14,832 bases of DNA from a bacterium. GTDB taxonomy: Bacteria > B130-G9. A program made the position numbers and the translations under genes. The DNA lies in assembly GCA_021160245.1 (NCBI GenBank), contig JAGHCW010000132.1:1-14832 (forward strand), in the 5' to 3' direction. How positions within the stretch are numbered: the first letter of the stretch is position 1; the number at the start of each line of letters is the position of its first letter. This document shows, in pieces, positions 13 to 14,832 of the stretch. The notes below the pieces were generated by a model. That model ran no database searches, was not told where the DNA came from, and saw only the letters and a list, made by a program, of their open reading frames with translations.

Positions 13-297
13 TCAGGCATGCGCGAGATCGCGGCTTAGTGCTGGGAAGACATCTTCCGGCTTTTTGCTTGTTGCCTTGAGATAGAGCGAATCTGGGCAA
101 AGATCGATTTTATCGTCCCAGACAAGCTCGCCAAATGAACCGATCTCAACCTGTTCAAAAGCGAGCCGATCACGCCATAGAGCGAATACGCCTTTGCCGA
201 CCAATTCTTCGATGTCCACGACACCGCTCACTGCGTCGTCAAAGACCAATTCGAGGCGATAGCCTGATAATACTCTGACTTTTACGATTTTGACCAT
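13..297 (-). CDS. DUF2442 domain protein
   Basis: A 94-residue protein that matches the DUF2442 pattern from memory: an N-terminal strand region (GYRLELVFDDAVSG), then VVDIEELVGKGVFALWRD, and a C-terminal IDLCPDSLYLKA block. I chose the ATG at 297 over an upstream non-ATG start at 354. The protein homology begins just after it, and a purine-rich ribosome-binding stretch (GGATGAGAGAGAC on the minus strand) lies directly upstream. DUF2442 proteins have no established biochemical role. They are often found beside DUF4160 proteins in toxin-antitoxin-like pairs. No DUF4160 partner lies upstream here, and the downstream side is cut by the window edge, so pairing cannot be judged. The family call is fairly sure; the function is unknown. 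Confidence 0.8.
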   Translation of the reverse strand: MVKIVKVRVLSGYRLELVFDDAVSGVVDIEELVGKGVFALWRDRLAFEQVEIGSFGELVWDDKIDLCPDSLYLKATSKKPEDVFPALSRDLAHA

Positions 298-325
298 TGT
301 CTCTCTCATCCTCTTTCTTACTAAG

Positions 326-354
326 ACCATAACAGGTGTTCTGTGCGGAAGCAA
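326..354 (-). promoter_or_regulatory. Weak candidate promoter for the DUF2442 gene
   Basis: On the minus strand TTGCTT (354-349) and TATGGT (331-326) are separated by 17 bases, about 30 bases upstream of the ATG at 297. The spacing is ideal for a sigma70 promoter, but the hexamers match only 3/6 and 4/6, so this is tentative. Confidence 0.25.
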
Positions 355-392
355 AGGTGGTTCGGGCCTTAAGCTGACTTTGCGAGATTCGT

Positions 393-420
393 GGGCAGAC
401 GCCCCCTTGCGGGTGTGCCC
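393..420. repeat. Hairpin palindrome 1 of the cluster
   Basis: An outer GGGC/GCCC stem (393-396 with 417-420) and an inner ACGCCC/GGGTGT stem (399-404 with 411-416, one G-T wobble) flank a six-base loop CCTTGC, with a two-base bulge AG. It would fold in RNA or single-stranded DNA. There is no U-tract, so it is not a classical terminator. Confidence 0.45.
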
Positions 421-453
421 CTGGATTGTAGGTAGTTGATTCGCTGTAAGCTC

Positions 454-473
454 GACCGCGTTTCAACGCGGTC
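454..473. repeat. Hairpin palindrome 2 of the cluster
   Basis: Perfect 9-bp inverted repeat GACCGCGTT / AACGCGGTC with a two-base centre TC. Its compact GC-rich form is typical of REP-type dispersed palindromes. Confidence 0.6.
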
Positions 474-500
474 ATATAGATGTCTCTCATTATATTAACG

Positions 501-517
501 CCCGACTTCCAGTCGGG
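501..517. repeat. Hairpin palindrome 3 of the cluster
   Basis: Perfect 7-bp inverted repeat CCCGACT / AGTCGGG with a three-base loop TCC. It resembles the REP-like palindromes that are dispersed through many bacterial genomes. Whether it recurs in this genome cannot be seen from one window. Confidence 0.55.
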
Positions 518-605
518 TGACTTGAGGGCGCGAGGCGCACCTTCCTCACTCCCCGGAATCCCCGATCTGAAGGGCATATAGAGGGAGGTGTCGGCCGGCC
601 CGCAT

Positions 606-822: not shown

Positions 823-871
823 CAAACAGGCTCAAATTGAGTGTTTGAGCGCTCGGTTACAATCACTGTTT

Positions 872-887
872 TGTGATTTAGATCATA
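872..887 (+). promoter_or_regulatory. CRP/FNR-like operator candidate
   Basis: TGTGATTTAGATCATA matches the classical CRP palindrome TGTGATCTAGATCACA at 14 of 16 positions. It lies about 43 bases after the predicted transcription start and ends four bases before the Shine-Dalgarno GGGAG at 891-895, so a bound regulator would more likely repress than activate. It overlaps another inverted repeat, AATCAC / GTGATT (861-866 with 873-878). A chance match is possible, and no regulator gene is in the window. Confidence 0.3.
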
Positions 888-901
888 TATGGGAGTTAGG
901 A

Positions 902-1975
902 ATGGACGGAACAGAGAAACTTATGAAGAAGATGACCGAAGTCGAGGGGATTTCGGGCTTTGAGCAGGGCGTTGCTAATCTCGTTAAGGACGAGCTGAAG
1001 GGGACTTGCGAGTATGAGCGAGACAATCTTGGTAGTTTGATCTGCATACACAAGGGAACTACTAATTCGCCCAAGATAATGATGGCGGGTCACATGGACG
1101 AGGTCGGGTTCATCGTTCAGCAGGTTACGGACGAGGGATTCGTCAAGTTCCTGCCTGTGGGTGGCTGGTGGCCTGGCAACGTTCTCGCCCAGAAGGTGGC
1201 GATCCAGACGCGTAAGGGAAGGGTCGTCGGCGTCGTAGGCTCGCCTGCCATTCACGACATGGACAAGGAGAAGCAAGGCAAGCTTATGAAGCTCAAGGAG
1301 CTCTTTATAGATGTCGGGCAGTCGGTTGACTTTGACGTGAAGAAGGAACTCGATATCCGGCCCGGCGACCCGATCACGCCGCTCTGTGATTTTGAGATCA
1401 TGAGCAATCCCAAGATGTACATGGCGAAGGCCTGGGACAACAGGATAGGCGTTTTGATCATGGCCGAGGCGATGAAGCGGCTCGCTAAGATCAAGCACCC
1501 GAACACCGCTTACGGAGTTGGCACGGTTCAGGAGGAAGTGGGCCTGCGAGGCGCCAAGACTGCTGCGGCGTACGTGAAGCCTGACGTCGCGTTTGCGCTG
1601 GACGTTTGCACCGCGAAGGACACCGGCGGCAATGGAAAGGGCAGGCCAGAGAAGCCCGGCGCCGGCGTTGGGATTATGGTCTTCGACAATTCTCTTTTGC
1701 CCAACACAAAGCTCCGCGATTTCATGATAGCCCTTGCCGAGAAGAAGAAGATCAAGCATTTCCTCGGCGTTCTGGATGGCGGCGGCACGGATGCTGGTAG
1801 GATCAATCTGAGCGGAACAGGCATCTTGAGCATGTACATTGGCATAGCGGCTAGGTATATCCACTCTCACGTTTCCGTCATTCATCGCGATGATTTCGAG
1901 GCGGCCGTGAGCTTGATGGTTGAGGCGCACAAGGCGCTTGATAAGAAGACGGTGGACAGCCTGAGAACCTTTTAG
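902..1975 (+). CDS. M42 family metallo-aminopeptidase
   Basis: A 357-residue cytosolic aminopeptidase of the M42 (TET/glutamyl aminopeptidase/FrvX) family. These form large tetrahedral dodecamers that remove N-terminal residues from peptides. The two-metal site is complete: His64 in AGHMDEVG, Asp179 in AWDNR, the pair Glu211-Glu212 in VQEEVGLRGA (general base and metal ligand), Asp234 in ALDV and His321 in YIHSHVSVIH. A GGGTDAG motif follows the usual order, and the length is normal for the family. The ATG at 902 is preferred over an in-frame TTG at 845 because GGGAG at 891-895 is well spaced and the conserved region starts at once. It is the first gene after the promoter at 795-822, and galU follows after ten bases. 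Substrate preference cannot be read from the sequence. Confidence 0.93.
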   Translation: MDGTEKLMKKMTEVEGISGFEQGVANLVKDELKGTCEYERDNLGSLICIHKGTTNSPKIMMAGHMDEVGFIVQQVTDEGFVKFLPVGGWWPGNVLAQKVAIQTRKGRVVGVVGSPAIHDMDKEKQGKLMKLKELFIDVGQSVDFDVKKELDIRPGDPITPLCDFEIMSNPKMYMAKAWDNRIGVLIMAEAMKRLAKIKHPNTAYGVGTVQEEVGLRGAKTAAAYVKPDVAFALDVCTAKDTGGNGKGRPEKPGAGVGIMVFDNSLLPNTKLRDFMIALAEKKKIKHFLGVLDGGGTDAGRINLSGTGILSMYIGIAARYIHSHVSVIHRDDFEAAVSLMVEAHKALDKKTVDSLRTF

Positions 1976-1985
1976 GAGAGGCACA

Positions 1986-2915
1986 ATGCGAATACAAAAA
2001 GCCGTCTTCCCCGCAGCGGGATTGGGGACGAGGTTCTTGCCCGCCACGAAGGCACAACCGAAGGTCATGCTGCCACTTGTGGATAAGCCGATAATCCAAT
2101 ATGTGGTTGAGGAGGCGCGGGATTCGGGCATTGAGCAGATAATTTTCGTGACTGGTCGAGGTCAACGTGCGATTGAGGACCATTTCGACACCTCGTTTGA
2201 GCTGGAGCGCGTCCTGGAGAGCAAGATAAAGGAGGCCTCCGATAAGAAAAAGAAGGCCGAGCTGCAGCACATGTTGGACGAGGCGCGAGAGATATCGAAT
2301 ATGTTCAACGTGGCGTATATCAGGCAGAAGGAGGCGAGAGGTCTGGGGCACGCCATTCTTGCTGCGCGCGATGTTATAGGCAACGAGCCGTTCGCGGTGC
2401 TGCTTGGCGACGACGTGATCTACAGCAAGACACCTTGCCTGAAACAGATGATCGACTCATATTCGCGCTACAAATGCCCCGTAATCGCGCTTGAGCGCAT
2501 CCCCAAGGAGAGCATTGGCCGTTTCGGTGTGATTGCGGGCGACTGTGTGGATGACAGGCTTTACAAGCTCTCTGGAATGGTCGAGAAGCCAAAGCCGGAG
2601 GACGCACCGTCTGATTTGGCCATCATCGGCAGATACATCCTGACGCCGGAGATATTCGAGATACTCGCGAACCTTCCGCCCGGCAGAAGCGATGAGATAC
2701 AGCTGACTGACGGTCTCGTCGAGCTCCTTGGCCGACAGGTGATTTACGGCTATGAGTTTGAAGGCAGACGTTACGACGCCGGCGACAAATTGGGCTTTCT
2801 GATTGCAACTATGGAATATGGACTCCGCAATCCTGAACTCAGTGACGAGTTCATTGACTACTTGGGCCAGATGGACATCAAGAGCATCTGTGGCAAGGAA
2901 TTGCCCAAGAAATAA
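1986..2915 (+). CDS. galU: UTP-glucose-1-phosphate uridylyltransferase
   Basis: A 309-residue GalU/GtaB-type enzyme that makes UDP-glucose from UTP and glucose 1-phosphate in the cytosol. UDP-glucose feeds exopolysaccharide, lipopolysaccharide and other glycan synthesis. Near-diagnostic motifs are the nucleotide-binding loop FPAAGLGTRFLPATKAQPK (8-26), LVDKPIIQYVVEEA (31-44), the metal-binding GDD (141-143), EIQLTDG (237-243) and YDAGDKLG (263-270). The usual PKEMLP after the loop reads PKVMLP here, a small departure from the common form. The Shine-Dalgarno GGAGAGG begins inside the stop region of the M42 gene ten bases upstream, so the two are surely co-transcribed. Full length and intact. 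Confidence 0.95.
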   Translation: MRIQKAVFPAAGLGTRFLPATKAQPKVMLPLVDKPIIQYVVEEARDSGIEQIIFVTGRGQRAIEDHFDTSFELERVLESKIKEASDKKKKAELQHMLDEAREISNMFNVAYIRQKEARGLGHAILAARDVIGNEPFAVLLGDDVIYSKTPCLKQMIDSYSRYKCPVIALERIPKESIGRFGVIAGDCVDDRLYKLSGMVEKPKPEDAPSDLAIIGRYILTPEIFEILANLPPGRSDEIQLTDGLVELLGRQVIYGYEFEGRRYDAGDKLGFLIATMEYGLRNPELSDEFIDYLGQMDIKSICGKELPKK

Positions 2916-2931: not shown

Positions 2932-4707
2932 GTGAATGTCGCGAGAATGTGCGCCGCTAGTGCGAAGGCCTTTCCAGAAAAGAAGGCAATTGTCCACAGG
3001 GACGTTACACTCGATTTCGCCTCGTTGGATAAGCTGGTTACTCGCTGTGCGAGCGGATTCCACAAGATGGGCATTGGACCAGGGGCTAAAGTAGTTTTGC
3101 TTCTGGAGAAAACTCCAGAGCTCGTTATCTCATTCGTGGCGTGCGCAAGGGTTGGGGCAATGGTGGTTCCAATCAACTACCAGCTTCAGCCCGCAACGGT
3201 TGAGGAGATTATCCTGAACCATGGCGTTGACGCAATTGTGGCGTCTTGCAGGTTTGAGAGGCTCCTCTCGAAGATGCCTAAGAACCACAAGGCGATGAGC
3301 AACTTAGTTCTCTGCCGGGCGGACGAAGAACACCGGGCCGAGGACTGGCTCACTTGGGAGAAATTCCTAGACGATGCGCCGGACGACTTCACGCCGGCTG
3401 ATGTTGACGACGACGCGCCTTTCTATCTGAACTTCACTTCCGGAACGACGGGCGCGCCTCGTGCGGCGATCACAACTCACACGAATCTATTCTGGAACAC
3501 ATTGGCCTCCGTGGAGACGCTTGGGCTCCGCCACAGCGACGTTCATCTCTGCATGTTTCCCGCATACCTGCATCCCCACGAGATATTCTATCGTGGCATC
3601 TATCTCGGCGGAACCTCGGTCGTTGACAACAGCCTCTTCCCAAAATCCGTTGCACGAGCGATAAGTGACAACGGTGTGACTTGCGTCATGGGCGCTGCAA
3701 CTCTCTACGAGCGGCTCCTGCCATTCGCATCGACGAAGGGGCTCCATTACGAGACGCTCAGGATTGCAGAGAGCGGCGGCATGATTACCCGCGAGACACT
3801 CATCAAGCAGTTCGAGGCGGCGTTCGGCATTCCCATCACCCCTGTATGGGGAAGCACAGAGACGGCCGGCATCGCGGTCGCAACTCCGGCGGAGGAGGCG
3901 AGGAGAGGCGGCTCGATAGGCAAGACCGCGCTTCACTATGAGATCAAGGTTGTGCGTGAGGATGGCTCTGCCGCTGCCGAAATGGAGATCGGCGAGATGC
4001 TCATCTCCGGCAAGGGCGTTGTCTCGGAGTATCACCATATTGCTGACGGCCAGAAGTCGCCGTTTGAGAACGGTTGGTTCAGGACGGGAGACCTCATCAA
4101 GCAAGATGAGGACGGCTTCATCTATTACGTTGACCGCAAGGACTCGATGATGAAGGTGGCCGGCATGAAGGTCTTTCCTGCTACCATCGAGCGAGTCTTG
4201 AAAGAACACCCAGATATCGCTGATGTATGCGTTATACCCGCCTCCGACAAACTGCGCGGCCAGATGCCGATGGCCGTCGTCGTCACAAGGCCCGGCGCCT
4301 CGTTAGCAGCGGACGATCTCCGCGGCTATTGCGCGTCCCGGCTGGCGCCTTATGAGGTACCGAAGCTCTTTGAGTTTAGGGAGGCCATGCCACGAACGGC
4401 CGGGGGAAAGGTGCTTCGCGCGGAGTTGCTTGAGCTCTATCGGAAGGACTCGAGCCACGCTGACATCGCCGACCTAAGGGCCCAGATCGACAGGATTGAC
4501 GTCCAAATCGTGAAGCTCTTGAATGAGCGCGCAAGGTCACTCCTGAATATCCATGACCTGATTGAGGCGCGCGGTGAGAGATCGTTCTCCCCCATGCGAG
4601 ATGAGGAAGTGATCCAAAACGTCCTCGGCTACAATGCCGGCCCCGCCCACGACGGCACAATCGAGGAGATATTCCGCAGCATCCTCGCCGCGCTGAAGAA
4701 GATGTAG
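2932..4707 (+). CDS. Acyl/aryl-CoA ligase fused to a chorismate-mutase-like domain
   Basis: A 591-residue two-domain protein. Residues 1 to about 505 are an ANL-superfamily adenylate-forming ligase, which activates a carboxylate with ATP and usually transfers it to CoA. The P-loop FTSGTTGAPRAA (168-179) has Arg177 where Lys is usual. WGSTE (306-310), RTGD (384-387), the hinge DRKDSMMKVAGMKVFP and the catalytic lysine Lys493 in PRTAGGKVLR are all present. Residues about 511-591 resemble an AroQ (type II) chorismate mutase: LRAQIDRIDVQIVKLLNERA, then MRDEEVIQNV and EEIFRSIL. Aligned to E. coli AroQ, Arg11, Arg28 and Arg51 are kept (516, 533, 556). Lys39 is Ile544, Asp48 is Ser553, Ser84 is a Leu, and Gln88 lies past the end. 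Mutase activity is therefore doubtful. The GTG at 2932 is chosen because AGGTGG lies seven bases upstream. It sits 16 bases after galU. The substrate is unknown. Confidence 0.85.
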   Translation: MNVARMCAASAKAFPEKKAIVHRDVTLDFASLDKLVTRCASGFHKMGIGPGAKVVLLLEKTPELVISFVACARVGAMVVPINYQLQPATVEEIILNHGVDAIVASCRFERLLSKMPKNHKAMSNLVLCRADEEHRAEDWLTWEKFLDDAPDDFTPADVDDDAPFYLNFTSGTTGAPRAAITTHTNLFWNTLASVETLGLRHSDVHLCMFPAYLHPHEIFYRGIYLGGTSVVDNSLFPKSVARAISDNGVTCVMGAATLYERLLPFASTKGLHYETLRIAESGGMITRETLIKQFEAAFGIPITPVWGSTETAGIAVATPAEEARRGGSIGKTALHYEIKVVREDGSAAAEMEIGEMLISGKGVVSEYHHIADGQKSPFENGWFRTGDLIKQDEDGFIYYVDRKDSMMKVAGMKVFPATIERVLKEHPDIADVCVIPASDKLRGQMPMAVVVTRPGASLAADDLRGYCASRLAPYEVPKLFEFREAMPRTAGGKVLRAELLELYRKDSSHADIADLRAQIDRIDVQIVKLLNERARSLLNIHDLIEARGERSFSPMRDEEVIQNVLGYNAGPAHDGTIEEIFRSILAALKKM

Positions 4708-4780: not shown

Positions 4781-6175
4781 ATGTTTACACATCTGCGCAT
4801 AAAGAACTTCAAGGCGTGGCGCGACACCGGCGATATTCGCCTGGCGCCGCTGACGGTCTTTTTTGGCACTAATAGCTCCGGCAAGAGCAGCATCAGTCAG
4901 TTCTTGTTGATGTTGAAGCAAACGGCTCAATCTGCGGACCGGAAGAGAGTATTGATACCTTCGGACAAAGATATGCCGATTAACCTCGGGGGCTACCGTG
5001 ACATGGTGCATGGCCATGCCGATGATGAACGGATCGCCTTCAGACTGGGATGGGAGCTTCCCACAAGGATGGTGCTCAAAGATGTGCGGTCTGACGAGAA
5101 GTTTTCAGGAGACTCAATCAGATTTAGTGCCGAAATCGGTCTGCCAGCAGGCAAGCGGGAGGATGTTGTCATCCACAGTATGCAATATGAACTCGGCAAT
5201 TTGTCTGAGAAGGGCCTTGAACTCGGCATGAAGTTGAAGACTTCGAAAAGCCCCGGAAAGGACCAATATGAGCTGGTGCATTCAGGCTACAATCCGGTTC
5301 GAAAGGAAGGTAGAGTTTGGCCGTTGCCATCTCCCATTCACTTCTACGGGTTCCCCGCGGAAGTAATGGCCTATTATCAAAATGCAGGATTCGTGGGGGA
5401 CCTGGCGTTTGCGCTCGAGCAGCGTTTGCGGCTCATGTCCTACCTAGGGCCCCTTAGAGATTATCCACGCCGGCAATACCCATATATGGGCGAGACACCG
5501 GAGGATGTAGGCAGGCAAGGAGAGCAATCCATTTCAGCGATTCTGGCGGCGCGCGAGCGATTCATCAGGCCAGGCAAGTATAAATCCCGAAAGTCCTTTC
5601 AGGTTCTCATTGCCAGCTGGCTGGAGAACATGGGTCTAATTGGGAGCTTTGATGTCAAACCAATTGTGCCTGACGGACGTCTGTATGAAGTCGTCGTCAA
5701 GACGCCAATGACCGAAGCACACGTGAACCTTACTGACGTCGGTTTCGGGGTCTCTCAAGTATTGCCCGTTCTGGTTCAGTGCTTCTATGCGCCTTCGGAT
5801 TCGGTAATCATAATGGAGCAGCCTGAGCTTCATCTTCATCCGTCTGTTCAGGCTTCGCTTGCGGACCTGTTCATTGAGACTATTCAGGCCCGGGAAAATG
5901 GGAAAGACCGCAACATCCAGCTTCTGGTCGAAAGCCACTCTGAACATTTCCTCATCCGCCTACAGCGTCGAATTGCCGAGGGAAACATCTCTCGTGAAAA
6001 GGTAGCGATTTACTTCTGCAAACCTACTCGTTTAGGAGCGGAGATGAAGACCTTGGAGTTGGATGTTCTCGGCAATATCACCAACTGGCCGAAGGACTTC
6101 TTCGGCGACCGGTTTACGGATATGGCCGAAATGACGAAGGCTGGGGCTGCACGGCGAATGGCGGGGAATGGATGA
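4781..6175 (+). CDS. AAA/ABC-type ATPase, DUF3696 family
   Basis: A 464-residue ATPase of the SMC/OLD-like ABC branch with a DUF3696-type C-terminus. It opens with MFTHLRIKNFKAW, typical of this group. Walker A is GTNSSGKS (29-36), a signature-like block is LTDVGFGVSQVLPV (318-331), Walker B is SVIIMEQPELHLHP (341-354), and the H-loop/switch is LLVESHSEHFLIRLQRRI (381-398). The closing WPKDFFGDRF segment (436-445) fits DUF3696. There is no Toprim or HNH nuclease domain, so it probably acts through its partners. AAGAGGAG lies six bases before the ATG. Its stop overlaps the start of the PIN-like gene by four bases (ATGA). Related ATPases serve as sensors or activators in bacterial defence systems. 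That role here is inference. Confidence 0.88.
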   Translation: MFTHLRIKNFKAWRDTGDIRLAPLTVFFGTNSSGKSSISQFLLMLKQTAQSADRKRVLIPSDKDMPINLGGYRDMVHGHADDERIAFRLGWELPTRMVLKDVRSDEKFSGDSIRFSAEIGLPAGKREDVVIHSMQYELGNLSEKGLELGMKLKTSKSPGKDQYELVHSGYNPVRKEGRVWPLPSPIHFYGFPAEVMAYYQNAGFVGDLAFALEQRLRLMSYLGPLRDYPRRQYPYMGETPEDVGRQGEQSISAILAARERFIRPGKYKSRKSFQVLIASWLENMGLIGSFDVKPIVPDGRLYEVVVKTPMTEAHVNLTDVGFGVSQVLPVLVQCFYAPSDSVIIMEQPELHLHPSVQASLADLFIETIQARENGKDRNIQLLVESHSEHFLIRLQRRIAEGNISREKVAIYFCKPTRLGAEMKTLELDVLGNITNWPKDFFGDRFTDMAEMTKAGAARRMAGNG

Positions 6176-6717
6176 TCTCCTCATTTTCGCTGTGTGCGGT
6201 TGATACGAATGTCCCAATCACTGCAAATGGAATGTCGGATGCAACCGACGCGTGTCTGATAGAGTGTGTAAAAGCCTTACAGAGAATCAAAGAAAGGGGT
6301 CGGATTCTCTTGGACTATAGCCGTCTGATCTTAGGCGAGTACGAGCATAAGCTCTCCCCTTCCGGTCAGCCCGGGCTTGGTGATGAGTTCTTGCTCTGGA
6401 TATACCAGAACCAAGGGACAGGTCGCTGCGTTTTCGTGACAATCACGCCGAAGTCAGGCTGTTCCTACAACGGTATTGCATACGACTTCGTGGAGTTCCC
6501 CAACCACCCAGGATTACACGACTTCGACCTCTCTGACCGGAAGTTCGTCGCCGTTGCGCTCGCTCATCCTGAGCGTCCACCGATTCTAAATGCAACGGAC
6601 ACAGACTGGTTGATAGCTGAGGAGCCGCTGGCAAGACACGGAATCAAGGTCGAGTTCCTTTGCCCGGAAATCAAGGATGTGCTTGAAGGCAAACTCAAAA
6701 AAACCGCTAATGGCTGA
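6172..6717 (+). CDS. PIN-like domain putative nuclease
   Basis: A 181-residue protein with a PIN-like arrangement of acidic residues: Asp11 in AVDTNVPITANG, Glu56 in LILGEYEHKL, Asp119/Asp122 in FDLSDRKFVAVAL, and Asp143/Asp145 in NATDTDWLI. PIN domains are metal-dependent nucleases, mostly ribonucleases, and include the VapC toxins. The spacing, with a longer middle region than VapC, suggests a PIN-like subgroup rather than a classical VapC, and no antitoxin-sized partner is present. Its ATG overlaps the ATPase stop by four bases, and its end overlaps the RNA ligase start by eight, so all three are probably translationally coupled. I infer that it is the cleaving effector controlled by the ATPase. 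The fold call rests on motif reading and needs a profile search; the target is unknown. Confidence 0.7.
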   Translation: MISSFSLCAVDTNVPITANGMSDATDACLIECVKALQRIKERGRILLDYSRLILGEYEHKLSPSGQPGLGDEFLLWIYQNQGTGRCVFVTITPKSGCSYNGIAYDFVEFPNHPGLHDFDLSDRKFVAVALAHPERPPILNATDTDWLIAEEPLARHGIKVEFLCPEIKDVLEGKLKKTANG

Positions 6718-7405
6718 TTTCTTTAAGTTTCCTCATACTCCGCATTTGGTCTGGCTGGGCGCCGAGTCGCCCCGCGAGGACAAAGTTCTTTCGCCTCGGG
6801 ATGTTGAGTCGTTTCTTGAGGGCGAGGTTCTGGTTGAGGAGAAGGTGGACGGGGCCAACATTGGGCTGTCTATTGGTCCGGATGGCGACGTTCGGGTCCA
6901 GAACCGGGGGAGCTATCTTCGTGGCAAGGCGCATCGTCAGTTCGGCCCGCTATGGCCGTGGATCGATGCACGCCGGGCTGCGTTGACCGAGGCGCTCGAG
7001 CCCGGACTCATCCTATTTGGCGAATGGTGCTACGCCCAGCATTCAATCCACTACGATCAGCTGCCTGACTGGTTTCTTGCCTTCGATGTTTATGATACGA
7101 AATCTCGCGAGTTCTGGAGCACGGCCCGGAGAAACCACTTTGTGGATTCGCTTAAGGTGCGCCGAGTCCCTGCGGTGACCGAAGGCACATTCACATTATC
7201 AGAACTCGTTGGACTGTTGGGTGAATCCCGCCTAACCAGAGGCCCCATGGAAGGAATCTATTTACGGAGGGAAGACGGTGATCGTCTGCTCGCCCGGGCG
7301 AAGATCGTCCGTGCTGAGTTTGTACAGAACATCGGCGAGCATTGGTCGAAGAGCGCATTCCAGAGGAATGCCCTCCGCAAAGCCACCGTCGCGGCTGCGG
7401 TTTGA
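6710..7405 (+). CDS. RNA ligase family nucleotidyltransferase
   Basis: A 231-residue protein of the covalent nucleotidyltransferase (RNA ligase, Rnl2-like) superfamily, which joins RNA ends through an enzyme-AMP intermediate. Motif I is EKVDGANIGLS with the predicted AMP-accepting Lys45. Motif Ia is likely VQNRGSYL (Arg66), motif III is LFGEWCYA (Glu105), motif IIIa is AFDVYD (125-130), motif IV is MEGIYLR (Glu181), and motif V is RAKIVRAEF (Lys198). It is a minimal ligase with little C-terminal extension. I chose the ATG at 6710, which overlaps the preceding stop, over an upstream ATG at 6677, because the conserved sequence begins at FFKFPHTPHLVWLG. No strong Shine-Dalgarno is seen, which fits coupling to the PIN gene. 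It may repair RNA cut by the PIN protein or by an invader. That is inference, and DNA nick sealing is not excluded. Confidence 0.85.
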   Translation: MADFFKFPHTPHLVWLGAESPREDKVLSPRDVESFLEGEVLVEEKVDGANIGLSIGPDGDVRVQNRGSYLRGKAHRQFGPLWPWIDARRAALTEALEPGLILFGEWCYAQHSIHYDQLPDWFLAFDVYDTKSREFWSTARRNHFVDSLKVRRVPAVTEGTFTLSELVGLLGESRLTRGPMEGIYLRREDGDRLLARAKIVRAEFVQNIGEHWSKSAFQRNALRKATVAAAV

Positions 7406-8653: not shown

Positions 8654-10177
8654 TTAGCGACAGCTCTTGCCGCCCATCGCATGCTCTAGCTGGGCAAGCG
8701 CGCTGAGGTAGTCATAGGTCGCGTTGATGTGCTCAATCTGGGCCGCGATGTGGTCATTCTCAGCCGCGATGAGGTCTTTGTTCGTAATCAGGCCCTCGCG
8801 ATAATTCAATCGAGCCAGCTCCAGCTGTTCACTCGCCACACCCTCAGCTCGCTCGAGATACGCCACCTCATCCGAGAGCATCTTGAGGTTCCTGACGATT
8901 TCCCTAATCGACAACTCCACCTGCCTCTTTAAGTCCTCGAGGCTTCTCCCCAACTGGCGCGAGGCGATCCGGGATTGGATATATGACTCGCCGGATGTTC
9001 TATCAAGGAAATCGTGCTCAAAGCTCAAGGCAAACTCCCAAACTCGCTCTGTGATGTCCAGCGACTCGTGGAACTTGTCGTCCGTCTCTTTCATAGTGAA
9101 CTTGCCCTCTGCCGCAAGCGACGGGAGTGTGCTGTCCTTCGCGGTCTTCTCGTATAGCTTGTATCTTCTAAGTGTCACGCGCATCGCGCGCATATCTGGC
9201 CTCTCCCTGAAGGCAATCTCCACATATTCCTGCGGCTCCCTGCTGAGAGGCTTCCGCCTCCGATCAAAGAGCGGCTCTATCCGGGCGCCAACATCAAGGC
9301 CGATGAGAGAAACAAGGGCGTCAATCCTGCTATCCACATCCTTTCTGGAATTACTCAGATAGCGCTGACGATTTATGAACTGCAGCTCTGCCCTGGAATG
9401 TTCGAGGCGCGACGATAGCCCTTCCGTGAGTCGAAGCTCGGCGATCGATAGGTCGATCTTTGAAGCGGCGAGCGATGATTGCATCACTTTCACATGCTCC
9501 TCCGCGCGCAGAAGTGCATAAAAGGCCTGCTTCACAGAGAGCGAAAGGTCGAGAATGCTCTCCTCAAGGTCCAACTTCGCAGTCTCAACTCCCAATCCAG
9601 CCTGCCTCAGCCCAGCGGTCGCAATCTCCTGCCCGGCGCCCCTCAGCAGTTGCTGCGACAGAGAGAAGCCGAGGCTTGTGCCAAACTCCGATTTCCCTGC
9701 TCCGGAGTAGTAGGAACTGTAGATGTCATCGCGGTAATCGGACGTGTGCTCCGTCCAGCCGAGGCCTCCGGCTACGCCAAATTCGCCTCCATATTTGTGC
9801 TTCAGCGAAAAGGCGAGGCCCGCATTATTGCCATAGTCCTGAACGAGATGGGAATTGTAGATTGACACGAGATATGTCGCCTCAAGCGATGGGAGAAACA
9901 TATCCGCCTCAATCAACAAGGCCGAGTCGGCAATCGCGACAGAGTCCTCTTGATTCTTTATGCCGAGATTCCTTTCGAGCGAGATGTTGATGCAGTCCTT
10001 GAGTGTAAGCTTGAGCGTGCCGGCTGAGGCCGGTTTCGCAGGATAGAGCGGGCTGGCAAAGCTCGTTTCGGCCTGCGCGGATGAGACCATGATGAGGCAC
10101 GCTATGAAGCACACCGCAAGCAGCCCCACTCCTGCAAAAAGAAAGGCGGACATGCTTCCCACGCCCGCCTTCCACAT
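8654..10177 (-). CDS. TolC-family outer membrane efflux/secretion protein
   Basis: A 507-residue TolC-family channel, the outer-membrane and periplasmic conduit used by type I secretion and tripartite efflux pumps. Residues 1-36 form a long signal peptide: Lys3, a hydrophobic core, and a predicted cut after SSAQA. The mature part begins LKLTLKDCINISLERNLGIKNQ, the usual opening helix, and ends with the NYREGLITNKDLIAAENDHIAAQ-type helix (described here by its start), as expected for two outer-membrane-efflux repeats. Start choice is uncertain: ATG at 10177 gives a basic n-region, ATG at 10153 gives none, and a TTG at 10216 would overlap the upstream gene. It lies 19 bases after the giant repeat protein and 18 before the radical SAM gene. 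No inner-membrane pump or adaptor is in the window. It may export the giant protein or serve an unseen pump. Confidence 0.88.
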   Translation of the reverse strand: MWKAGVGSMSAFLFAGVGLLAVCFIACLIMVSSAQAETSFASPLYPAKPASAGTLKLTLKDCINISLERNLGIKNQEDSVAIADSALLIEADMFLPSLEATYLVSIYNSHLVQDYGNNAGLAFSLKHKYGGEFGVAGGLGWTEHTSDYRDDIYSSYYSGAGKSEFGTSLGFSLSQQLLRGAGQEIATAGLRQAGLGVETAKLDLEESILDLSLSVKQAFYALLRAEEHVKVMQSSLAASKIDLSIAELRLTEGLSSRLEHSRAELQFINRQRYLSNSRKDVDSRIDALVSLIGLDVGARIEPLFDRRRKPLSREPQEYVEIAFRERPDMRAMRVTLRRYKLYEKTAKDSTLPSLAAEGKFTMKETDDKFHESLDITERVWEFALSFEHDFLDRTSGESYIQSRIASRQLGRSLEDLKRQVELSIREIVRNLKMLSDEVAYLERAEGVASEQLELARLNYREGLITNKDLIAAENDHIAAQIEHINATYDYLSALAQLEHAMGGKSCR

Positions 10178-10196
10178 TGAAATCTGCAAAACTCTT

Positions 10197-13100
10197 CTAC
10201 TCGAGCACCCATTCAACCTGTGCGATTGAGCTTATCAGGTTGAAACTATCCGCATCGGAGACCGCCACAAACCACTTGTATTGGCCTGGGCCGAATGCGC
10301 GAAGGTTGTTGTTGAAGAGGATCATCGGGCAGACATCCGCATGTCTCGGCAGCACATAGTCGTCAAAGAACGGCGCCAATTCCGGCGCGAGGTCCTGACC
10401 AAACGCCAGTGTGCCATCCGGAGCCTGAAGAGCCACATAGAGATCAACGGTCTTTGTAAGGCCGTCATTTCTAAGTCTGGCGCTTAGTACCTGCATCGCC
10501 CCATGATCATAAATCGGATACGTGTTGTTGAGCGAGAGTTCCAGCTCTGGCCTGAGGTCAATTGTCGTAACCAGAGGAACCGATGCCAAGAGGTTCTCGC
10601 CCTCCAAATGCCTCGTCAGAACCGCGCGCCACATATATTCGCCCGGCATAATGGACGAGGGAACCTGAATGTCCGCGAGCGGTATATTGTGAACCGAAAG
10701 GCCGGCTGGCATGTCGAAATTGGTCAAGTATGGACTCGGTTCGCCGGTGAAGCTCGGGAAGAAGACCACATCACCCGTCGGAAGGATGATGCTAATGTAA
10801 AGGTCAAGCCCTCGCACGGTCTCTCCCTTGTTGCGACCAGAGATCGAGACTCTCATGTTATCACCCGAATAGAACATGTCAGCGTTGCACGCAAGCCCAA
10901 CTGAGAGCAGTGAAGGCTCAACACCGATACCAGTCAAAGCGACCTCAATTTCCGGCCTGTCAGGATCGTTTGATTCTATCGTCAGCGTCGCAGAAGTAAC
11001 TCCGATCTCGGTAGGTCCGAAGACCACAGGAGCGAAAGAAGTCAGCCCTGGATTAATCGTAAATGGTGTCGTCGAACTGCAATCAAACGCGACTCCGTCA
11101 ACATCCAACGATACAACAGTCAGCGGCGCCTCGCCCTGGTTGGTGATGAAGAGCTGCCAGAACTTGCTGGCTCCGATCTGAACTTCACCAAAGTTATAGG
11201 ATTCGGCTGAGAGCGCTATCTCAGGATAGAGCATTCTGTACTGCGTCGTCGTGTCGGCCGAGGCCGGCGGCTGCTCAATGTTCCCCGCAGCATCTGTCGC
11301 TATCGAGTAGAACTCGTAGTATCCCTCACCGTTCGCTGCTTCGAACTGGAATAGGCCAGTCTGACCCCCGATGGGCTCGCCTACTTCCGCCCAATCAGTC
11401 CAATCGCCACCCAGTGTCGCCGAATAGCGATACCAAAGCGAGATTGACGCAATCGGACTGAGAATGTCCGTCGCATTTGCGCCAACAGTGAAGATCGCTC
11501 CGTTGACCTCGTCAGGCGATACTGCCGTGGAGTATGGAGACATGGTGTCATAGGCGATCGATGTGTCAGGCGCGGCAGGTATGGTCTCCCTATTCCCAAA
11601 CTTGTCCTCCGCAACCGTATAGAAGTCGTAGTCGCCGTCGCCCTCTATCGGCACGAATTCGAACACACCGACCGTAGATTCTGTCGCCAGAAGCCCAGTG
11701 TCCTTATACGCTCCGCCACCTACTCGATACCAAAGCCGAACCGATGCGATACCCACACCTCGGTCGGAGGCCTCATAAGGCAGCGGAATCGGGGATTGGT
11801 TTGAATACGCGACATCAGATGAAACTGATGACTTCGGCGCAACGTTGTCGAATGTTGAAATGGCGGAAACAGTAGCGCCAGTTGTCGGCTCCGGCTCGCT
11901 GTTGCCGCAGTAATCGGTCGCAACCGTCCAGAACGAATACGTTCCAACGTCATCCGGTGGCAGGAAGTCAATTGTCCCTGATTCGGTGTGCGCAATGTGT
12001 CCGGACTTAGTCCAGTCGCGATCCCCAAAGCGATACCATAAGCAGACATTCTCAACTCCGCTCTTCGCATCCCATGCGGTGAAGAAGACCGGTATGGTAT
12101 CACCCGTAATCATCTCGGGTGAGCTAACGGTCGAGATCGGAACGGTAATATCATAATAAGTCGTGGTGTCAGGCGATGTCGGATCAAGCTCCGTCCAACC
12201 CGCATTGTCCGTTGAGAGCGTGTAAAACTCGTATTCGCCCTCACCGTCCGGCGCGTTGAACTCGAAGACGCCCCAAGAATCAAAGGAGATCATCTCAGCG
12301 CTCTTGTACTCGCCGCCATCGAAGCGATAGAACAGCGTAACCTGCGATACACCCGAAGCATCGTCACGGGCCTCATATCTGATATTCAGCGGCAATTCAG
12401 TTGCATAAGGCGCAGACCAGCAAGTCGAAGCCGGCCTCTCTCCATCATATATGCAGCTGCCATCCGGCACATCTGGCACATACTCCTCATTCCCGGCGGT
12501 ATCAATCGCATGAGAATAGAAGTCATAGCGTCCAAAACCGTCGGCCAGTACGAACGTGAATGTCCCGCTCGTGGCATTGACAGATAAACCTGTGTTTGCC
12601 CAGTCGCCACGCCCATATCGATACCACAACCAGACCGAATCAACGCCAGAGAAGTTGTCCGCCGCTAGGAAGTCAATCGCGATGGTTGCGTTCGTCGAGG
12701 ACTCCGGCACAGTGGCTATCGAAACTGGTCGCGCCATGTCAAACACAGTCGAGGCGTCCTCTATCGCGGGCACAGCTTCGGTGTTACCAGCAAGGTCTCT
12801 ACCTATTGTATAGAACCTGTAGGTTCCGCCAGCTATCTCCGGCTCATATATGAAGCTGCCGGAATTAACGCCATGCTTCTCGTCCACCTTCTGCCACGCC
12901 CAGATATCAAACTGGACCCAGAGCTCAACGACTGCAAGTCCCGTGCCAACATCATTCCCCTCAAAATGAACGTCAATTGGGGAGGATGTAGTCCACGTCG
13001 GAGCGGATGCCGTCGTGTTCGGAGCTACCGTATCGACGAATGAGATACTGCACGGAGCAGTCTCTGCGCTGGGCTCGTCCTGAACATTGCCTGCAGCGTC

Positions 13101-14832
13101 CGTGGCCACAGTGTAAAATGCATATTGGCCATCGCCTTCGGGTGGCAAGAAGGAGAACACACCGAAGTTTTCACCCGGACCTGATACATTGATGCTCTCT
13201 TCCCATCCCAGCCAGTCCGTCCATCCTAGCTCTTTATACTTGTACCAAAGCCTAACTGATGCGAGGTCCGAGCCCGTCCCGTCAGCCGCGAATTGGATGT
13301 TCACAGGCTGCTGGTTATACGTCGCGTCGCTTGTGCATCCGGAAGTCGGGAGCACGACATCATAAGGGACACTCGTGGGCAACTTGGCCGTCCAATCTTC
13401 CTCATTGCCGGCCATGTCGATTCCAACCGTATAGAAATCGTATGTGCCCGGGCCCTCGGTCGGAATGAAATTGAACCATCCCGCTTCCGCATTATGGGAA
13501 AGCCCTGTGCTCATCCAAACGCTGGCGTTGAACCTGTAATAGAGAACTACCGTATCGATCGGCGCCCCCGTCAGAACCGACGGCTCAACACATTCGAACG
13601 ACAGTGAAATCGGCAGCGAATTCACACCCGTCGGTCCCGAGAGAATTGTCAGCGGAGCCGTCGAATCAAAGAGCGTTCCAGAATCGCCATTCACAGGCGC
13701 CGGAACAGCCTCAATAAAGCCCGCATTGTCCGTCGCGACCGTGTAGAAATAGTAAACACCCTCACCAGAAATCGGTATGTAGTCGAATCTGCCAGAAGCC
13801 TCCGAACTCGTCAGCCCAGTAGCGCCCCATGCCCCGGCCTCTCCGAACTTGACATAAAGGTCAACGCTCGCGATGCCGGATGAGTTATCAGTTGCAACGA
13901 AATAGACGGGGAATGGACCCAAGTTCGTGTAGGTCTCGGAAGATGCAACCGATTCTGGCGCTGATATGTCATAAGTGGTCTTGCTATCGATCGAATCGCC
14001 CTGACCAGGAGCCGGCTCCAGATTGCCGGCGTTGTCCTTCGCTATGGTATAGAAGGAATATGCGCCCTCGAGGCCTCCTGGGGGATCGAAGGAGATTGAG
14101 CCGACAGCGGCCGATCCGTAACCGCCCGTGTATTCTGCAAACATGCCCGAATCGAGCTTGAACCAAAGCGCTACCTGGGCAAGACCGGATGGGCCTGTAT
14201 CCCCAGCCGTGTAGTCAACCTGTATCGGCAGCGCTGTCACAATTGCCTCTGATGTACAGGCCGATGTCGGGAGACTCCTATCGTAGATCGTGTTGACGAC
14301 AGTCGATGGAGGCGCGATCTCTACGTTGCCCGCGATGTCGGTCGTCCGCGTGTAGAAGCCATAGGTTCCCTCAACGTCATCCGGCTCAAACATGAACTCG
14401 CCGGATGGTCCGATAACTGGCTCTCCGAATTGCTCAAAAGCTCCGCCATCGAGATTGTAATAAAGGGCAGTGCTCAAGTCGCCTGAGAGATTGTCATCCG
14501 CTGAGAATGTAATGCCTATCGGCAGCGATGTAGCGTACTCCGGAGCATCAACCGTCGAGGTCGGCGCCGTAACGTCAAACACCACTGAGGCGTCCGCATA
14601 GCCCGGCCTGGCCTCGCGATTGTCGCAGTTATCGACAGAAACCGTATAGAAATGGTAGAAGCCCTCGCCGAATGGGAGGTCCACCAATATCGTTCCCGAG
14701 GTGCCAATATAAGCGCCGTAAAGTTCATAAGGACCGTTGTCAACGCTGATTAAGAGCTCCGTGCTCGCAACGCCAGCTGTGGCATCAGTCGCAATCCATT
14801 GGACTTCGCCAATCGGCTCACGAACCAGCTCT
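10197..14832 (-). CDS. Giant Ig-like repeat surface protein, 5' end beyond window
   Basis: An open frame runs from the right edge to a TAG at 10197-10199, giving 1,544 visible residues with no stop. A TTG at 14687 is not the real start, because the frame and the repeat pattern continue to 14832. From the N-terminal side the visible part holds 12 repeats of about 98-106 residues, then one choice-of-anchor D/ASPM-SPD-2-Hydin-like domain (11228-10917), then two copies of a C-terminal domain (10916-10557 and 10553-10200). Each repeat ends in a G-x-Y-x-FYT-x(3)-D-x-AGN-type motif. Such beta-sandwich arrays are usual in adhesins and other secreted or surface proteins. No signal peptide can be seen because the start is missing, and no sortase, RTX or membrane anchor was found. 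The protein heads an operon with a TolC-family gene. Surface role is inference. Confidence 0.85.
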   Translation of the reverse strand, partial: ELVREPIGEVQWIATDATAGVASTELLISVDNGPYELYGAYIGTSGTILVDLPFGEGFYHFYTVSVDNCDNREARPGYADASVVFDVTAPTSTVDAPEYATSLPIGITFSADDNLSGDLSTALYYNLDGGAFEQFGEPVIGPSGEFMFEPDDVEGTYGFYTRTTDIAGNVEIAPPSTVVNTIYDRSLPTSACTSEAIVTALPIQVDYTAGDTGPSGLAQVALWFKLDSGMFAEYTGGYGSAAVGSISFDPPGGLEGAYSFYTIAKDNAGNLEPAPGQGDSIDSKTTYDISAPESVASSETYTNLGPFPVYFVATDNSSGIASVDLYVKFGEAGAWGATGLTSSEASGRFDYIPISGEGVYYFYTVATDNAGFIEAVPAPVNGDSGTLFDSTAPLTILSGPTGVNSLPISLSFECVEPSVLTGAPIDTVVLYYRFNASVWMSTGLSHNAEAGWFNFIPTEGPGTYDFYTVGIDMAGNEEDWTAKLPTSVPYDVVLPTSGCTSDATYNQQPVNIQFAADGTGSDLASVRLWYKYKELGWTDWLGWEESINVSGPGENFGVFSFLPPEGDGQYAFYTVATDAAGNVQDEPSAETAPCSISFVDTVAPNTTASAPTWTTSSPIDVHFEGNDVGTGLAVVELWVQFDIWAWQKVDEKHGVNSGSFIYEPEIAGGTYRFYTIGRDLAGNTEAVPAIEDASTVFDMARPVSIATVPESSTNATIAIDFLAADNFSGVDSVWLWYRYGRGDWANTGLSVNATSGTFTFVLADGFGRYDFYSHAIDTAGNEEYVPDVPDGSCIYDGERPASTCWSAPYATELPLNIRYEARDDASGVSQVTLFYRFDGGEYKSAEMISFDSWGVFEFNAPDGEGEYEFYTLSTDNAGWTELDPTSPDTTTYYDITVPISTVSSPEMITGDTIPVFFTAWDAKSGVENVCLWYRFGDRDWTKSGHIAHTESGTIDFLPPDDVGTYSFWTVATDYCGNSEPEPTTGATVSAISTFDNVAPKSSVSSDVAYSNQSPIPLPYEASDRGVGIASVRLWYRVGGGAYKDTGLLATESTVGVFEFVPIEGDGDYDFYTVAEDKFGNRETIPAAPDTSIAYDTMSPYSTAVSPDEVNGAIFTVGANATDILSPIASISLWYRYSATLGGDWTDWAEVGEPIGGQTGLFQFEAANGEGYYEFYSIATDAAGNIEQPPASADTTTQYRMLYPEIALSAESYNFGEVQIGASKFWQLFITNQGEAPLTVVSLDVDGVAFDCSSTTPFTINPGLTSFAPVVFGPTEIGVTSATLTIESNDPDRPEIEVALTGIGVEPSLLSVGLACNADMFYSGDNMRVSISGRNKGETVRGLDLYISIILPTGDVVFFPSFTGEPSPYLTNFDMPAGLSVHNIPLADIQVPSSIMPGEYMWRAVLTRHLEGENLLASVPLVTTIDLRPELELSLNNTYPIYDHGAMQVLSARLRNDGLTKTVDLYVALQAPDGTLAFGQDLAPELAPFFDDYVLPRHADVCPMILFNNNLRAFGPGQYKWFVAVSDADSFNLISSIAQVEWVLE
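10200..10916 (-). repeat. Duplicated C-terminal domain of the giant protein
   Basis: Two successive protein segments (10916-10557 and 10553-10200) share the same order of features: a polar RN-x-G turn, a DLY strand, P-x-G-x(2)-x-F, a proline-rich loop, PG-x-Y-x-W near the end, and an NL-x(2)-S close. I read this as a tandem duplication of a domain of about 115 residues. I do not recognise a named family. Confidence 0.6.
10917..11228 (-). other. HYDIN/choice-of-anchor D-like domain within the giant protein
   Basis: This stretch encodes about 104 residues with the typical order YNFGEVQIG, WQLFITNQGEAPLTV, FTINPG, VVFGPTEIG, TLTIESNDPDRPEIEVALTG. This is the pattern of ASPM-SPD-2-Hydin or choice-of-anchor D domains, which are Ig-like folds common in secreted bacterial proteins. 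Confidence 0.75.
11231..14832 (-). repeat. Twelve tandem Ig-like protein repeats
   Basis: The aromatic FYT/FYS/FWT signature that marks the end of each repeat is encoded near 14651, 14357, 14054, 13748, 13436, 13118, 12815, 12521, 12227, 11933, 11624 and 11312, so the period is 294-318 bases. Each unit starts with a D-x(2)-xP-x-S-type linker, continues with a VxFxAxDxxSGxxSVxLWYRYG-like core (up to 20 residues quoted as a pattern), and ends in the FYT block. DNA copies are clearly diverged, so this is an old array rather than a recent expansion. The first repeat is cut by the window edge and more may lie beyond it. Confidence 0.85.

Follow-up and report, generated by a model that had tools for sequence, protein, structure and literature searches.

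The window, by which we mean the whole stretch of 14,832 nucleotides analysed here, carries a gene for an acyl-CoA ligase of the ANL type whose reading frame continues into a domain related to chorismate mutase (CM). The gene starts with GTG at position 2932, stops at 4705–4707 and encodes 591 residues with no internal stop. Its parts and the two genes ahead of it are listed below.

845..1975, + strand: M42 aminopeptidase, first gene of a conserved run (Pfam Peptidase_M42, 1.4e-93)
1986..2915, + strand: nucleotidyltransferase, read as a GalU-type UTP-glucose-1-phosphate uridylyltransferase, directly upstream of the ligase–CM gene (Pfam NTP_transferase)
2932..4707, + strand: gene for the ANL acyl-CoA ligase with AroQ-like tail (open frame; orthologues share the join)
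2956..4035, + strand: AMP-binding (adenylation) domain, residues 9–368 (Pfam PF00501, E 8.7e-64; invariant columns; structure match)
3544..3594, + strand: substrate-side motif HLCMFPAYLHPHEIFYR, residues 205–221 (alignment of ligase orthologues)
4186..4410, + strand: AMP-binding_C domain, residues 419–493, with the catalytic Lys493 at its end (codon 4408–4410; Pfam PF13193, E 2.8e-18)
4417..4569, + strand: single predicted helix, residues 496–546, which leaves the end of the ligase C-domain and continues as AroQ helix 1 (full-length model)
4474..4704, + strand: AroQ, or chorismate-mutase type II, domain, residues 515–591 (Pfam CM_2; residues; fold; selection)

The AMP-binding, AMP-binding_C and CM_2 matches all exceed their Pfam cut-offs, the last with 48.8 bits against a cut-off of 27 (E 8.1e-13, residues 515–590). 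An earlier note on this DNA had read one frame joining an ANL ligase, with Lys493, to an AroQ-like tail. The open reading frame, the Pfam matches and the structure model bear this out, and the ligase–AroQ fusion is confirmed as real. The note had proposed residues 505–591 for a check of the tail; the AroQ assignment stands, with the small correction that the CM match begins at residue 515.

The ligase part of the protein keeps its catalytic motifs. The P-loop, WGSTET, TGD and K493 were all found intact; the adenylation domain of the window protein carries TSGTTG (169–174) and WGSTET (306–311), with R177 at the position of the P-loop Lys, and Lys493 is invariant in the 18 sequences of the orthologue alignment. 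On the substrate side, the stretch HLCMFP-x-Y-x-HPHEIF contains several His, one Glu and one Arg that are nearly invariant (H205, H214, H216, E217 and R221) in fused and unfused orthologues alike, and this conserved HPHE-type motif suggests a polar acid as the substrate. The predicted full-length model (mean pLDDT 84.8) has the ANL fold and matched 4wv3 with a Z of 49.4 over 496 residues, while its residues 1–509 match benzoate/anthranilate-type CoA ligases with Z of 48–49 at 24–26% identity. The window protein thus shares the ANL fold and the catalytic Lys with the benzoate, anthranilate and feruloyl CoA ligases (2v7b, 4wv3 and 8weu), and differs from them by the HPHE motif and the AroQ tail. 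The exosortase-associated ligase of TIGR03098 (ligase_PEP_1), which is tied to exosortase/envelope gene systems, is likewise an ANL ligase; at 235 bits against a cut-off of 592, however, the window ligase is not a member of that family. By its domains, motifs and modelled fold, the protein can be placed among the acyl-CoA ligases of the ANL superfamily, and the formation of a CoA ester is predicted.

The acid that such a ligase would activate might lie in unrelated metabolism (fatty, aryl or phenylacetic acids), with the tail sensing aromatics from outside. The window ligase reached no cut-off among the NCBIfam models listed, and the top-scoring general ANL models, all under their cut-offs, were those for a fatty-acyl or o-succinylbenzoate ligase, which is in line with this explanation. 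The unusual conserved HPHE motif argues against it.

In the full-length model, one unbroken helix spans residues 496–546 at a moderate pLDDT of about 64–78; when the tail was modelled alone, a helix was predicted at 502–546 with high pLDDT along most of its length. The unbroken helix suggests that the tail may be rigidly joined to the ligase C-domain. The tail-only model as a whole (mean pLDDT 89.9) is a three-helix AroQ protomer. A profile built from CM domains outside the fusion family gave 59 bits for the window tail and 45–63 bits for 11 fused tails, and the best of 500 shuffled versions of the window tail reached 6.3 bits. A generic coiled coil, which the earlier note had named as the finding that would overturn its reading, is ruled out by the CM profile, the shuffles and the predicted fold; the domain search and structure prediction that the note proposed both returned AroQ. 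In sequence and in fold, the tail is nearest to the CM domains of DAHP synthases: the best Foldseek match was the CM-like domain of the B. subtilis DAHP synthase (1.4 Å rmsd over 76 columns), the best NCBIfam model was TIGR01801 for the CM domain of DAHP synthases (55 bits, under the cut-off of 106), and the best four matches among PDB sequences were all CM domains of DAHP synthases.

The same architecture was found in two groups of bacteria. The ligase gene was present in all four Coatesbacteria genomes examined, a small family, with the fusion complete in the window genome and, at 67–68% identity, in G001 and G003, and the G002 copy cut by the contig end upstream of the tail. In the phylum of G060, an LCP-89/Zixibacteria relative (hereafter the second phylum), 8 of the 39 genomes examined carried the fusion, so that 12 fusion-bearing genomes, all draft assemblies, were counted with the cut copy included. 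The survey of other genomes that the earlier note proposed therefore recovered its join in both groups. Homologues lacking the tail, with a frame error behind the join, had been offered there as a second way for the reading to fail, but orthologues at 68% identity share the join. A frame error or an assembly chimera is ruled out because independent genomes, at 68% and 37% identity, share the join, and we give it practically no weight.

Between the window and both complete Coatesbacteria copies, the tail is 76–79% identical and the ligase 66–68%. For the two closest Coatesbacteria copies, the tail has a dN/dS of 0.05 and the ligase one of 0.12. These values indicate that the tail, more conserved than the ligase that carries it, is maintained by purifying selection. 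All fused proteins group together in the ligase tree with moderate support (81/81), so that a single fusion event is likely but not certain.

We compared the active-site set R11, R28, K39, D48, R51, E52, S84 and Q88 (E. coli numbering) on an alignment with an E. coli CM reference sequence. In the window tail, R11, R28 and R51 are kept, E52 is replaced by D, K39 by I, D48 by S and S84 by L, and Q88 is missing. The same active-site set is given for the DAHPS-type CM domain of B. subtilis (PMC5526877). K39 is replaced by I or V and S84 by L or F, and the three pocket arginines are kept in all Coatesbacteria tails. In the second phylum, R11 is lost in every tail, position 39 is H, R, L or K and position 48 is S or Y; R28 is always kept there and the other pocket residues vary. 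Every fused tail has an LLN-x-R stretch and the helix-3 motif N-x-GP-x-x-D-x-x-x-E. Because D48 is variable in ordinary CM members too, most weight falls on the missing K39 and S84. The tail has the AroQ fold and matches the CM_2 profile but does not have the catalytic residue set, and judged from these alignments it is apparently a non-catalytic pseudo-chorismate mutase.

The shikimate pathway of the fusion genomes is incomplete. Chorismate synthase was found in 0 of the 12 draft genomes, with controls positive in 14 of 14, and shikimate dehydrogenase was likewise found in 0 of 12; prephenate dehydratase and prephenate dehydrogenase were found in none of the seven searched for them. PF00793, which covers DAHP synthase together with KDO8P synthase, and dehydroquinate (DHQ) synthase were each present in 7 of 7 genomes searched and DHQ dehydratase II in 9 of 12. 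The genome that the window comes from encodes DAHP synthase as well as DHQ synthase and DHQ dehydratase. Such gene content suggests that the fusion genomes can make 3-dehydroshikimate and not chorismate. Among the 31 second-phylum genomes without the fusion, 15 have chorismate synthase and 16 lack both. The difference from the fusion genomes of that phylum (0/8 versus 15/31, Fisher p 0.015) is confounded by relatedness, and the 16 genomes with neither point to a loss of chorismate that extends more widely across the clade and is not caused by the fusion.

These results bear on whether the tail is an enzyme. An active CM working on imported chorismate would come near the supply link of the earlier note, and it accords with the fused tail being the only CM_2 match in the window's genome and with the arginines kept in Coatesbacteria. 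Set against the replacements at K39 (I/V), D48 (S) and S84 (L/F) and the absence of chorismate synthase, prephenate dehydratase and prephenate dehydrogenase, we regard it as very improbable. An active CM feeding Phe and Tyr synthesis was rejected on the same missing residues and enzymes, which also speak against the idea that the fusion serves chorismate or prephenate supply; cell-made chorismate as the substrate of the tail finds no support in this gene content, and a link of the ligase–CM protein to endogenous chorismate or prephenate is unlikely. In genomes with only the first shikimate steps and no chorismate synthase, the tail probably serves in regulation or docking, not as an enzyme.

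Besides AroB, the Coatesbacteria have a second gene of the DHQ synthase family (G000:C136, G000:C5, G001:C1:15278 and G003:C221). AroB itself adjoins a glycerate-kinase-like gene.

The gene neighbourhoods differ between the groups. In Coatesbacteria, the order M42–GalU–ligase–CM is common to the window and G001, and the genes for DAHP synthase, DHQ synthase and DHQ dehydratase are dispersed, none adjoining the ligase. Three genes, the ligase among them, have glycan-type neighbours: GalU before the ligase, a GT2-like protein by DAHP synthase and a GT2/polyprenyl sugar transferase fusion next to DHQ dehydratase. In the second phylum, all eight fusion loci continue with a DAHP synthase gene as the next conserved one; its product has ~270 residues and no CM domain. 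This gene follows the ligase–CM gene directly in seven genomes and after one 221-aa ORF in G098. Downstream of this DAHP synthase is a Wzx-type flippase; on contigs that extend far enough, the flippase is followed by a B12-binding radical SAM protein and a SPASM radical SAM protein. Most of these genomes have another locus with genes for an MDR dehydrogenase, DHQ synthase and DHQ dehydratase, and a FemAB-like acyltransferase, a B12-binding radical SAM protein and a PMT_2 glycosyltransferase often accompany them. In Desulfobacterota, together with one record labelled Deltaproteobacteria, the ligase orthologue has no tail. Behind it come an MDR dehydrogenase, a relative of scyllo-inosose dehydrogenase, and/or a CM-DAHP synthase. 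The L040 locus continues with DHQ synthase and DHQ dehydratase, whereas in L045 the MDR gene is present and no DAHP synthase adjoins. Depending on the group, the CM module is thus carried either by DAHP synthase or by the ligase.

Since orthologues of the ligase lie beside DAHP synthase, and once beside DHQ synthase and DHQ dehydratase, we assign the ligase to shikimate-pathway metabolism. Of the aromatic link proposed in the earlier note, the tie to the shikimate pathway is broadly upheld by these DAHP synthase neighbours, and the tie to endogenous chorismate or prephenate is not. For a ligase acting on an unrelated acid, the lack of linkage to DAHP synthase in Coatesbacteria is favourable and the linkage in two other lineages is not, and we hold that explanation to be distinctly unlikely.

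Five cluster-linked CM-DAHP synthases (L037 8633–9613, L040 8663–9745, L042 8814–9944, L043 8602–9750 and L044 7449–8549) carry Phe at the position of the substrate-binding R28 in every CM domain, and by this substitution they look non-catalytic too. Two distinct B12-binding radical SAM proteins occur in conserved loci (L076 6154–12527 and L036 7762–13332, with equivalents in G061, G062 and G072–G074), one of them scoring towards BzaD and TIGR04072 (ladderane-type lipid clusters). These two-radical-SAM loci adjoin DAHP synthase and DHQ enzymes, a flippase and acyltransferases, and look like an undescribed biosynthetic system.

A CM domain on the ligase with a CM-less DAHP synthase next door at eight loci, and a CM-DAHP synthase where the ligase is unfused, would be expected if the tail were a docking module, the ligase–CM protein associating in trans with the stand-alone DAHP synthase in the manner of MtCM and MtDAHPS and so coupling the first and the acid-activating steps. 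Non-covalent CM–DAHPS complexes exist (2w1a and 5hud; PMC7762937), and in the tail position 46 of the Listeria interface is still mostly aromatic and position 76 mostly basic. In L. monocytogenes, the DAHP synthase residues that contact the CM domain are D326 and V329 (PMC5526877). In our alignment the stand-alone DAHP synthases do not keep them, having N/Q/W and K instead, and docking through a Listeria-type interface is therefore unsupported. The closest solved relatives, moreover, include barrel-only DAHP synthases without CM in the chain (1zco and 1vs1), and in Coatesbacteria the two genes are unlinked. The DAHP synthase tree did not unite the Coatesbacteria and second-phylum enzymes, which leaves co-inheritance of the ligase–CM/DAHP synthase pair unsupported. 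We consider docking possible but rather doubtful.

Among known systems, the CM-DAHP synthases of B. subtilis (AroA(G)), L. monocytogenes (3nvt) and Geobacillus (5j6f) carry the same AroQ-like subtype on a shikimate-related enzyme, and the domain has a regulatory role in those proteins (PMC5526877). CM and barrel are in one chain there, whereas here the barrel is encoded by a separate gene, the CM domain is C-terminal on an acyl-CoA ligase, K39, D48 and S84 are lost and chorismate synthase is absent. The M. tuberculosis CM–DAHPS complex (2w1a) likewise has its CM on a chain apart from DAHP synthase; MtCM, however, is catalytic and free, and the window CM is degenerate and ligase-borne, with docking putative.

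The explanation that we tentatively prefer, at somewhat less than an even chance, is that the ligase belongs to a shortened shikimate pathway feeding an envelope glycan and carries the pseudo-CM tail for dimerisation or regulation, not for catalysis. The route to 3-dehydroshikimate would run through DAHP synthase, dehydroquinate synthase and dehydroquinase; the ligase would adenylate dehydroshikimate or an acid derived from it (a reduced cyclitol acid or dihydroxybenzoate) and join it to CoA; and the acyl group would then be used for a polyprenyl-linked envelope or extracellular glycan. We identified no enzyme converting dehydroshikimate to the ligase substrate. The glycan-type neighbours (GalU, GT2, polyprenyl sugar transferase, Wzx flippase and PMT_2) count for this explanation, and the pathway genes unlinked to the ligase in Coatesbacteria count against it.

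AroQ folds are intertwined dimers, and the tail may dimerise the ligase in the same manner. ANL ligases need domain rotation between their two half reactions; acting through the helix, the tail could restrain this rotation, and from its place on the mobile C-domain the tail with its rigid helix could relay a signal from a pathway acid or from DAHP synthase. As to the ligand, chlorogenic acid is an ester of quinic acid. A regulatory role has been argued for the CM-like domain of the B. subtilis DAHP synthase, in whose pocket chlorogenic acid was bound (PMC5526877). By analogy with that ester, a shikimate-type acid is plausible as a ligand of the fused tail, and it is possible that the tail is a sensor of a shikimate-type acid other than chorismate or prephenate, the form in which the sensor idea of the earlier note survives. 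The variation of pocket residues other than R28 in the second phylum weakens the case for a ligand common to all tails. It would also fit, with the helix-3 motif staying while the pocket drifts, a tail that is a dimerisation module only, with no ligand or partner, the fusion fixing the ligase as a dimer. Such a tail is unlikely: Coatesbacteria keep R11, R28 and R51, more than a pure dimer requires, and the recurrence beside DAHP synthase would be coincidence.

The fusion recurs under selection in two little-studied phyla and marks genomes that have the entry to the shikimate pathway and no means to make chorismate. Pathway entry without chorismate suggests an unrecognised product of dehydroquinate or dehydroshikimate, probably for the cell envelope. 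The architecture also suggests that a regulatory domain has passed from one enzyme to another within a single pathway. In its fullest form, the pseudo-CM domain of DAHP synthase would have been taken over by the ligase, coupling the last and first enzymes of the pathway allosterically or physically in a shortened, chorismate-free shikimate pathway of Coatesbacteria and Zixibacteria/LCP-89 that would provide an envelope glycan with a dehydroshikimate-derived acyl group; we put this forward as speculative and more probably wrong than right. The earlier note did not know the fusion as a standard architecture, and we too found no description of it in the open-licence literature. Both domains are well known, and their architecture as ligase and AroQ tail is apparently undescribed; the domain combination and its chorismate-free setting are new to the sources searched.

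Other genes of the window were also noted. Positions 4781–6714 (+ strand) encode an AAA_15/DUF3696 ATPase followed by a small protein, with PADLOC matches to HEC-03B (E 2.5e-127) and HEC-03A (5.5e-30), and this pair is a candidate two-gene anti-phage system beside the ligase; it was not seen at the corresponding place in G001 and G003. The gene for an RNA ligase family protein (6677–7405, + strand; PF09414, E 1.6e-33) overlaps the end of the HEC-03A-like gene and possibly belongs to the same island. An outer-membrane efflux protein gene at 8654–10216 lies beside the gene for a very long protein (10197–14831, − strand; >1500 aa) with many Ig/FN3-like repeats, open at the contig end. In two Coatesbacteria genomes, DNA that looks intergenic contains similar translated stretches of the form PDWKSG.NIMR.IY.TALKR (window 239–577, − strand; L107 3423–4212, − strand), which suggests a dispersed repeat element.
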